52,194 bases of DNA from Cyanobacteria bacterium QS_8_64_29 (GTDB lineage Bacteria > Cyanobacteriota > Cyanobacteriia > Cyanobacteriales > Rubidibacteraceae): positions 1 to 52,194 of the forward strand of contig PXQH01000033.1 in NCBI GenBank assembly GCA_003022125.1. Direction: 5' to 3'. The notes beneath the pieces are model-generated. The model was not told the DNA's origin. It searched no databases and saw only the letters and a program-made list of their open reading frames with translations. Both the position numbers and the translations under genes were made by a program. Positions 1 through 2,414 of this stretch are shown in pieces. Numbering within the stretch: the first letter of the stretch is position 1; each line of letters opens with the position of its first letter.

Positions 1-96
1 TCCTCGTAGTTTATGCACTAGATCGCGATCCCCGAAACTCCCTCAATATGGGAGTCATGTTCTTTGGTGGGCGTGCATCTGCTGCTCAAATTGGTA
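1..96 (+). mobile_element. MITE-like element, copy 1 (left end outside window)
   Basis: Positions 3-96 align without gaps to copy 2 at 463-564, with about 13 differences over the ~95 aligned bases. The right end AATTGGTA is the inverted repeat of the TACCAATT that begins copy 2. It is followed by TCA at 97-99, the same trinucleotide that flanks copy 2. By alignment, about 7 bases of the left end lie before the window. The element is in the same orientation as copy 2 and, like it, is open in the reading frame of the host gene. There is no coding capacity for a transposase, so it would need to be moved by an enzyme encoded elsewhere. Confidence 0.7.
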
Positions 97-462
97 TCAG
101 TCCCGGTCGTGGGCCGTCGAGCGACGCCGATGCCGGCTCCGCGCCCGGCGGCGATCGCATCAGCCGCGGTAGTGATCGCGGCGAGGCCGCATCGGCCGGC
201 TACCGGGGCTTCCAGACCGAGTTCGATCAAAGCCAGGCCCAGCGCTCGGCCCCCGACCCCCAGCTGGTCATGCGGCTGCGCGCGCAGGCGCCCGGCTGGG
301 CGCGCGTGTTGGCCTTCGATCGCTACACGGGGCGGGGCTGGGAGGTCACCGCCGAGCGGCCCGGCCGGCGATTGCGGCGGCCGGCGAGCTCCTACCGCTT
401 TCGCCTGGCGCCGCCTGCCACGACGGCGCCAACGCGCGAGATCGTCCAGACCTATACCGTCA

Positions 463-564
463 TACCAATTCTCGTGGCTTGTGCACTAGATTCCGATCTC
501 TGGAACTCCCTCAATATGGGAGTCATGCTGTTTGGCAAGCGTGCATCTGCTGCTCAAATTGGTA
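463..564 (+). mobile_element. MITE-like element, copy 2 (complete)
   Basis: A 102-bp segment bounded by TACCAATT at 463 and AATTGGTA ending at 564. The outer 24 bases of the two ends are partly inverted-repeat (first 8 bases plus a shared TGCAC at positions 20-24). TCA occurs directly on both sides (460-462 and 565-567), which fits a 3-bp target duplication. Removing the element and one TCA restores the expected family sequence QTYTV-TAALPAFIPAF. The interior has a small hairpin, CTCCC-7 nt-GGGAG. A 3-bp duplication of the form TNA is known for part of the IS5 family, but the family assignment here is only a guess. Confidence 0.8.
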
Positions 565-1715
565 TCACGGCGGCACTGCCTGCCTTCATTCCGGCGTTTG
601 GCCCCCCCCCAGGAGCTGTTCTTTCCCAGCAAGGCCATCGCCCGCGATGCGCTGGGCAACCTGCAATCGCCAGCGCCGCTAAGCGAGGGCCTGACCTACA
701 CTGCCATCTCGCGCGTGCCGCTGCGCGATCGCGCCCGCTTGCGCGCGGCCCCCGAGCGCCACCCCGATGGCATTGCCAAGCGCTATTTGCAGCTGCCGGC
801 CGGTATCCGCGAACGGGTGCGGGCGCGCGCCCAGTCGCTGCTGGCCGAGGCCGACCGGCCGCTGGAATCGGCCTACGAACGGGCGCTTTTCCCGGCGCAG
901 GCGCTCAAGCAAACCTACCGCCTTCAGGCCGAGCAGCCGCCGCTGCCCCCCGAGGCCGATTTGGTCGAGGCATTCTTGTTTCGCCGCGAGGGCGGCCGCC
1001 CGGACCACTTCGCCACGGTCCTGACCGTCATGCTGCGCTCGCTGGGGATCCCGGCCCGCTTGGCCACAGGCTTTAGCAGTGATCGGTTCAACCCGCTCAC
1101 TGGCTTCTACCTCATCCGCAACACGGATGCCCATGCCTTGACAGAGGTCTATTTCCCTGGCCAAGGCTGGTTCGCCTTCGACCCCATTCCCGGCCACCCG
1201 CTGGTGCCGCCCTCGGTTGACGATGCGCGCACTTTTAGCGTGCTGCAGCAGCTCTGGCACGCGATCGCCGGTTGGCTGCCGTCGCCGCTCAAGGGGGTGG
1301 CGGCGGCGCTCTGGGCGCGCGCGAGCGACGCGGGCGAGTGGCTCGCGCGCAGCGGGTGGCACCTCGCAGCCGGCTTGGGCACCGCGATCGCGCTGGGGGT
1401 AGGCGGCCGATGGGGATGGCAGCAGTTGCACGCTTGGGGCCACGACCGCTGGCTGGCTCAGCATCCGCCGGCCGAGCGCTATTACCGACAGGCGCTGGCA
1501 GCGCTCGCCCGTCGGGGTCATCCCAAGCGGCCGGCCCAAACGCCGCTGGAGTACGAGCAGCAGCTGCGGCAGCACCTACCGGCGGTGGCCCGCCACTTTG
1601 AGGCCCTCGCGCGCGCTTACGGGCACTGGCGCTACGGCCATCGCAAGCCTGCGCCATCGGTGCTAGCCCGCGAGCTGCGATCGCTGCGCCAGTGCCTCAG
1701 GCACAAGCGCGCTCG

Positions 1716-2414
1716 CTAGAGACCGCCCGCCAAGTGCGAGAGCTGCTTGAGGTTGGTCAGATAGAGCGTGTGCGTGCTGCCATCGAGCTCCACCCAGCCC
1801 TTTTGCTGAAACTTGGCGAATGCCTTGCGGGTCTCGTCGCAGTCAATATCGGCGAGATCGGCAAAGGCCTTGTCGCTGGCGTGGAAAATGGCTGTCCCTT
1901 CCTCAGTGGGAATGCCGCAGCGCTCGGCCAGGGTCGTTAAGAGGTAAGCGAGCTTGACGGTGGGGGGCTGGTGGTTTAGCTGGGCCTGGGTATGGCACTC
2001 GCGCAGCCGCCGCACCATCAGCTGCAGCAGTTTGTGATGGAGCTGGATGTCTCTAAATAGAGTCTGGATGAAGCGCTGGGCCGAAACGCTTAGCACGCAG
2101 GTATCGTACAGCGCGATCGCGTCGCTACCGCGCAGGGGCTCATCCAAAATGGCACTTTCGCCAAAGAAGTCACTGCGCCCCAGCAGGGCCAGCGTCACGT
2201 TGCCTTGTTCCGAGCGGCGCCGAATCTCGACCCAACCCGAGGCAATAAAGTGGACGGCATTGCCCCAATCTTCCTCGGCCACAATGGCCTCGCCCGCCGC
2301 GTACTGCTGCTCCTCCGCAACGGCGAGAAACCACTCCAGCGTTTCCGAACTGGCCGCGTTGAACAGCGGAAAAATTTCGCTAAACGCGCTAGCGTCCATC
2401 AAAGCCCGCGGCAT
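1716..2414 (-). CDS. Crp/Fnr-family transcriptional regulator
   Basis: A 232-residue protein with an N-terminal cyclic-nucleotide-binding-type beta-barrel (about residues 14-125, including FFGESAILDEPLRGSDAIA around the ligand pocket). A long dimerisation helix (FRDIQLHHKLLQLMVRRLRE) and a C-terminal winged-helix region (about 150-228) follow. The pocket has GESA and a following LRGSDA rather than the classic RxS/T arrangement of cAMP-binding CRP, so the ligand cannot be stated. A second Met at residue 6 is an alternative start. A TATAAT box lies about 115 bases upstream. The gene overlaps the transglutaminase gene tail to tail by four bases. Its target genes cannot be inferred from the neighbours. 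Confidence 0.85.
   Translation of the reverse strand: MPRALMDASAFSEIFPLFNAASSETLEWFLAVAEEQQYAAGEAIVAEEDWGNAVHFIASGWVEIRRRSEQGNVTLALLGRSDFFGESAILDEPLRGSDAIALYDTCVLSVSAQRFIQTLFRDIQLHHKLLQLMVRRLRECHTQAQLNHQPPTVKLAYLLTTLAERCGIPTEEGTAIFHASDKAFADLADIDCDETRKAFAKFQQKGWVELDGSTHTLYLTNLKQLSHLAGGL

Follow-up and report, generated by a model that had tools for sequence, protein, structure and literature searches.

A 102-bp MITE family in Cyanobacteria bacterium QS_8_64_29 that can insert into genes without shifting the reading frame

Results

The window analysed here, a stretch of 52,194 nucleotides, is the entire contig C33 of the Cyanobacteria bacterium QS_8_64_29 assembly (2.22 Mb in 69 contigs, with a completeness rating of 99.95%). 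Its gene content, with photosystem II, Ycf48 and Ycf4 families, is that of a photosynthetic cyanobacterium, and the genome stretches examined have a GC content of 63%. At the left edge of the window lies a gene for a TgpA-like transglutaminase (3..1719, forward strand), the 5' part of which is off the contig. Pfam places Transglut_core and DUF4129 matches within 532-1719 and a TgpA_N match, below the cut-off, upstream of them. From 628 on, the gene has a match of 47-55% identity in 13 of 15 relatives. The missing 5' part, about 264 residues by comparison with orthologues, was not found in the genome stretches examined.

Two copies of a short repeat lie on the forward strand within this gene. 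Copy 2 is complete, with 102 bp at 463..564 and the ends TACCAATT...AATTGGTA, and stands between TCA target duplications at 460..462 and 565..567. It contains a central hairpin, CTCCC...GGGAG (505..523), which is part of an element-wide palindrome, and in the host frame it encodes IPILVACALDSDLWNSLNMGVMLFGKRASAAQIG plus the codons split at its edges. A search for the two ends separated by a gap of 80-110 gave this one match in the window and none in 100 shuffles. Copy 1 occupies 1..96 and matches columns 9-104 of the 104-column family profile. Because the contig starts inside it, neither its left end nor the duplication and flank on that side can be seen, and the TCA at 97..99 is the right half of its duplication. 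The initial annotation had described two like-ended copies of about 102 bp, each flanked by TCA; this description is exact for copy 2, and for copy 1 it extends to the right TCA alone, the left end and left TCA being off the contig. The two copies are 86.6% identical over 97 bases, in agreement with the roughly 13 differences reported there, and the host frame does run through both copies with no stop (ORF 3..1076).

We found that removing copy 2 together with one TCA restores the expected protein, as had been proposed. An orthologue alignment was assembled from 18 loci, six of which lacked a long ORF, and two of the remaining 12 rows were wrong ORFs (L097 and L100). All ten correctly aligned orthologues lack the 35 residues, and the joint is exact: QTYTV followed directly by TAALPAFIPAF aligns against orthologue sequence such as QTYTVVSELPNIIPAL. 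The insertion point of copy 1 falls in a variable stretch of the alignment. One feature of the host had been overlooked in the initial annotation. The gene is read in frame 3 to about position 609 and resumes in frame 1 (610-1719) after a run of nine C at 602..610. Because of this run, the frame that passes through both copies stops, as sequenced, short of the transglutaminase domain.

The repeat is a genuine MITE family. Searching about one fifth of the genome, chosen by whole-genome scans, with a profile made from 50 complete copies, we detected 92 copies or fragments, four of them shorter than 60 bp. Those scans gave 83 matches to the right-end pattern with at most two mismatches (one for a reversed-pattern control) and 80 to the left-end pattern with at most one mismatch (none for the control), so that about 90 is a fair genome total. 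The family ends, ATACCAATT/AATTGGTAT, are terminal inverted repeats on a short element that carries no transposase gene. Among the 62 copies having both ends, 55 are exactly 102 bp long and 53 are flanked by exact TNA duplications (TAA 17, TCA 15, TTA 11, TGA 10). The flanking triplets of the other nine are unlike each other, which could have arisen by recombination between copies. The proposal of a MITE-like mobile element is thus borne out by many copies with TNA duplications and by orthologues that lack the element; the search of the genome and its relatives returned neither orthologues that all carry the segment nor a genome devoid of other copies.

Two full-length copies, 78-79% identical, occur in one of 29 relatives, which belongs to another genus of the same cyanobacterial family, and all other matches among the 29 cover just 15-27 bases with E values of at least 0.1. 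The relative's two copies have altered ends, TCCCA/TGGGA, with both sides changed, as does the divergent copy C47:2828 in the present genome. A DNA pattern scan of named genomes, among which the window's own genome is perhaps not included, gave no match. In open-licence papers we found no account of this family, which is nameless and hard to search for, and apparently it has not been described so far.

Several arrangements of the repeats deserve mention in their own right. Five main-family copies, one of them inverted relative to the other four, are packed into 850 bp at L041:4708-5556 (contig C58), and the copy at L075:779-909 (contig C11) has 27 extra bp in its central loop. The end of L244 (contig C30) and the start of L246 (contig C61) share a longer repeat that immediately precedes the left end of a main-family copy, with the same TCA flank. 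On contig C43, an IS5-like transposase fragment (L031:1750-2350) is interrupted by one copy and contains the remnant of another; further along the same contig lies the N-terminal part of DnaE (L031:3170-5983), which ends in what we take to be the N half of a split intein. A second repeat family, 132 bp long in the two copies measured, has TATAGCA-like/TGCTATA ends beside TA and presumably resembles IS630-type MITEs in those ends. Its copies lie at L061:5370-5529 (the end of contig C27), L034:5985-6090, L034:5621-5719, L048:962-1061, L040:2386-2485, L040:2516-2601, L031:915-1014, L075:4633-4731, L044:4266-4351, L088:2232-2332 and L057:5213-5294. One second-family copy shares a secretin-like ORF with an element of the main family.

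In-frame insertion, noted at first in one gene, recurs: five copies in at least four genes are read through. Besides the two copies in the transglutaminase gene, three copies that relatives lack are of this kind. C2:78448 lies in frame in a large protein that belongs to no Pfam family and looks polytopic. Seven of 15 relatives match this protein both before and after the insert, and in relative G003 the two matching segments abut directly. C23:8580 lies in frame in a protein of the sodium/calcium exchanger family (Na_Ca_ex), matched on both sides in ten of 15 relatives, and is read through in another element frame than the remaining read-through copies. C21:22693 lies in frame in a glutathione S-transferase (GST), with an exact joint against two aligned relatives. 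These further insertion-gene alignments gave usable rows from five of six, three of seven and two of three loci.

Other insertions break their genes. With a domain matched on both sides, stops are caused in an MFS-type gene (C2:266), a MacB/FtsX gene (C50:23396) and a secretin-like gene (C27:26375), and a frameshift in a Na/H exchanger gene (C4:10270). In all, the ORFs at 25 copies were scanned with Pfam, and nine copies, copy 1 included, have a domain or an orthologue match on both sides. Some insertions lie where the domain ends or beyond it, in genes for a cyclase, an O-methyltransferase and Usp; C22:16569, C51:17492 and C4:11749, with the insert in such a position, were not counted. Also left uncounted were copies without a two-sided domain: C47:2702 and C47:2828 (an open ORF with the last 37 AAA_35 positions), C42:60719 (an open ORF of no family), C23:7897 (an open ORF with a whole DUF4926 after the insert), C51:286 (Sel1 on one side), C58:2706, C28:7298, C20:1146, C47:16006, C12:6532 and C5:64. 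A strict coding filter, which demands that both flanks be coding on one strand, was passed by six of 88 rows, a set that includes two from the relative, and missed two verified genes. To judge from this filter and the 25 scanned copies, most copies appear to lie outside genes.

Two candidates were set aside. The ABC-transporter copy C5:506 was rejected as a read-through case: the flank frames differ, the stretch after Walker A is missing and the flanking triplets are TGA and TCA. It looks like a recombination scar. The corresponding interval, L039:506-609, in the broken ABC-transporter gene looks like the product of a deletion by recombination between two copies. The secretin-like C27:27267 is open and was not counted, its left joint being uncheckable against relatives.

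Do host genes tolerate the insert, as the initial annotation suggested? What these genes document is read-through, not tolerance. Three of the four read-through hosts contain other frame breaks: in addition to the nine-C run of the transglutaminase, the GST has a frame change in its N-terminus, upstream of the insert, and the gene that hosts C2:78448 has frame shifts in its upstream portion. In the exchanger, the insert parts GN from the motif IGSNIFN, which is unbroken in three aligned relatives. For a rough comparison, 20 window ORFs were scanned; 17 had Pfam domains, with no sign of a frame break, in a set that is biased toward intact genes because its members were picked as long ORFs; in one of them, the NAD-kinase N-terminal profile was matched from position 47 on only. 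Some of the host frame breaks could be sequencing errors, since two of them coincide with runs of a single base. On the whole, the host genes give the impression of damage and not of improvement. With few copies in genes by the strict filter, at least four gene-breaking copies and damaged-looking hosts, a tolerated, protein-modifying repeat is unlikely on present evidence. We infer that read-through copies persist mainly in dispensable or decaying genes and not through any usefulness of the peptide.

Why, then, does the frame survive insertion at all? Since the 102 bp of the element and the 3-bp duplication make 35 codons, an insertion shifts no frame. The second component is the phase of the target. 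In 135 long ORFs, taken from stretches that partly overlap slightly so that a few ORFs may be counted twice, the T of TNA sites falls at codon positions 1, 2 and 3 in 6.6, 59.5 and 33.9% of cases. With T at position 2 and in the forward sense, the element reads IPILVACALDxDLRNSLNMGVMFFGKRASAAQIG, and 49 of 55 complete copies have no stop in this frame. A second frame on the forward strand is free of stops in 17 of the 55, and not one copy is open in any of the three reverse frames. The element can therefore escape a stop because the TNA sites of this GC-rich coding DNA most often place T at codon position 2. When we simulated random insertion (40,000 trials, 61 real copies, TNA sites of long ORFs), 28% of insertions were read through, which follows from an added length that is a multiple of three and from TNA sites that lie mostly in the element's open phase. 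The observed count is five of nine internal gene insertions with copy 1 included (p = 0.08). It becomes five of ten when the truncated copy in the IS5-like transposase fragment is added (p = 0.13) and four of eight when copy 1, whose left flank is unseen, is left out (p = 0.17). There is no clear excess over the expected 28%.

A full IS with the same ends, which the initial annotation had put forward as a thing to look for, was not found in the genome stretches examined (G000) or in relative G001. Of the two transposase families searched, DDE_Tnp_1 is represented in the genome by one fragment and DDE_Tnp_1_2 by none. Relative G001 has 12 DDE_Tnp_1_2 matches, four of them over the cut-off, and ten of these loci, when examined, showed no pair of matching element ends. 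The left-end pattern has one exact match in G001, which is the known copy, and eight one-mismatch matches against nine for the control; near its IS5-type fragments, end-like motifs occur singly and not in pairs. The putative mobilising enzyme is therefore assigned from the target duplication.

Discussion

Our analysis identifies a MITE family of about 90 copies, a few of which are read through in genes. We consider it very probable that this is a 102-bp MITE moved by a TNA-targeting transposase, and that its in-frame insertions come from length arithmetic and target phase. The element would be a non-autonomous DNA transposon whose ends are recognised by a transposase with 3-bp TNA targets, and in this lineage it would have multiplied to about 90 copies. 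Upon insertion into a gene, 102 + 3 bp would add 35 codons and leave the frame unshifted, and a TNA site with T mostly at codon position 2 would cause the forward strand to be read in its stop-free phase. The exact TNA duplications suggest that the enzyme is a DDE transposase, most likely one of the IS1031 group of the IS5 family, to judge from the target sequence.

An alternative is that the family is a selfish protein-coding repeat of the Rickettsia palindromic element (RPE) type, in which selection keeps the forward frame open so that a harmless peptide results in genes. We regard this as quite improbable, although several observations lean toward it. Besides the 49 of 55 complete copies, frame 0 is stop-free in 79 of 86 copies when partial copies are included. 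In a 57-copy tree, 104 of 245 changes fall at third codon positions of the forward frame against 75 and 66 at the first and second, and the relative's two copies, with 23 and 25 differences from the consensus, have 13 third-position differences each. The N/S ratio is 0.51 of expectation for all differences and 0.69 for unique changes, the lowest of six frames; the low ratio of reverse frame 0 is not independent, because it shares its third-position columns with the forward frame. A palindromic fold and a read-through fraction nominally above 28% also fit such a repeat. However, the third-position excess has p = 0.12 by column permutation, or 0.14 without the terminal repeats. The initial annotation considered it noteworthy that both copies stay open despite 13 differences, and this loses its force once it is seen that only about 2% of single-base changes in this frame make a stop. 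Just 4.8 stops are expected in 245 changes, and six of the 55 complete copies have one, all at a single site (TAG), so the open frame is weak evidence of selection. Because few stops are expected and the palindrome constrains the same columns, the signal of codon-level selection on the forward frame is suggestive at most, and it is not significant. The coding filter places few copies in genes, the read-through of C23:8580 employs another frame and the hosts are otherwise damaged, all of which argue against maintenance of the peptide.

Selection might instead act on a structured RNA or DNA hairpin, such as an mRNA-end or attenuator-like repeat, with the fold rather than the peptide being maintained; this, too, we think unlikely. 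The element is palindromic throughout, and its fold has a z of -3.7 in the consensus and of -4.3 in copy 2. The named structure of 26 pairs is formed in 95.1% of cells, compared with 30-49% when the partners are slid, and at several stem positions the forward strand retains a G-U or A-U pair. The covariation score is 0.110 against a shuffled mean of 0.102 and is reached by seven of 500 shuffles. However, 35 of 500 shuffles attain the same paired percentage, only three pairs have changed on both sides, where the shuffles average 3.6, and the sequences tested are those from which the structure was built. Moreover, a palindrome is expected of any short element with terminal inverted repeats, and the exact TNA duplications demonstrate transposition. 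An assembly artefact, in which misjoined repeats place copies in genes, has next to no probability in our judgement. Several contigs, the window included, do end in copies, some copies lie beside N runs and nine of the 62 complete copies lack matching duplications. However, exact duplications at 53 of 62 copies, together with exact orthologue joints in unrelated genes, are unlike the outcome of misjoining.

Mobile repeats that insert in frame are known chiefly from Rickettsia. A further idea, which we offer as a long shot, is that the transposon evolved to be silent in genes, with its length, its duplication and its open strand fitted to codon phase and the frame selected independently of RPE. 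If this were true, between a quarter and a third of insertions into genes would add a 35-residue peptide and leave the gene unbroken, and RPE-like selection would have acted through a different transposition chemistry. Whatever the history of this frame, target rule, element length and codon phase together give a null model that predicts the read-through rate of a MITE. The 28% obtained here can serve as a yardstick for claims of selected protein-coding repeats, RPE included.

How does the family compare with known systems? According to PMC12016507, the IS1031 group of the IS5 family targets TNA and generates a 3-bp repeat, and the exact 3-bp TNA duplication of the present family agrees with this rule. 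It shares with IS1031-group MITEs its short length, terminal inverted repeats and duplication, and differs in that the assembly yielded no intact transposase of DDE_Tnp_1 or DDE_Tnp_1_2 and no like-ended IS. Among cyanobacteria, the MITE Nezha (PMC3733652) and MITEs with ORFs in Anabaena PCC 7120 (PMC10969869) resemble the present family, by description, as small mobile repeats. RPE are the closest functional parallel. They are described as short palindromic repeats with an open frame, found in frame inside unrelated genes (PMC10969869, PMC3733652), and their predicted compatibility with host protein structure is termed intriguing (PMC10969869). The present family likewise is a palindromic repeat with an open frame that occurs in frame in unrelated genes. 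However, nearly half of the reported RPE copies lie in ORFs, as stated in PMC10969869, whereas verified read-through here concerns five of 92 copies or fragments, in damaged-looking hosts, and a large share of copies in ORFs was not found. The same source calls in-frame fusion via the ORFs of intragenic MITEs not unusual. Given this statement and the RPE parallel, an in-frame MITE is a known kind of element, and the family described here works like RPE, probably as a by-product.
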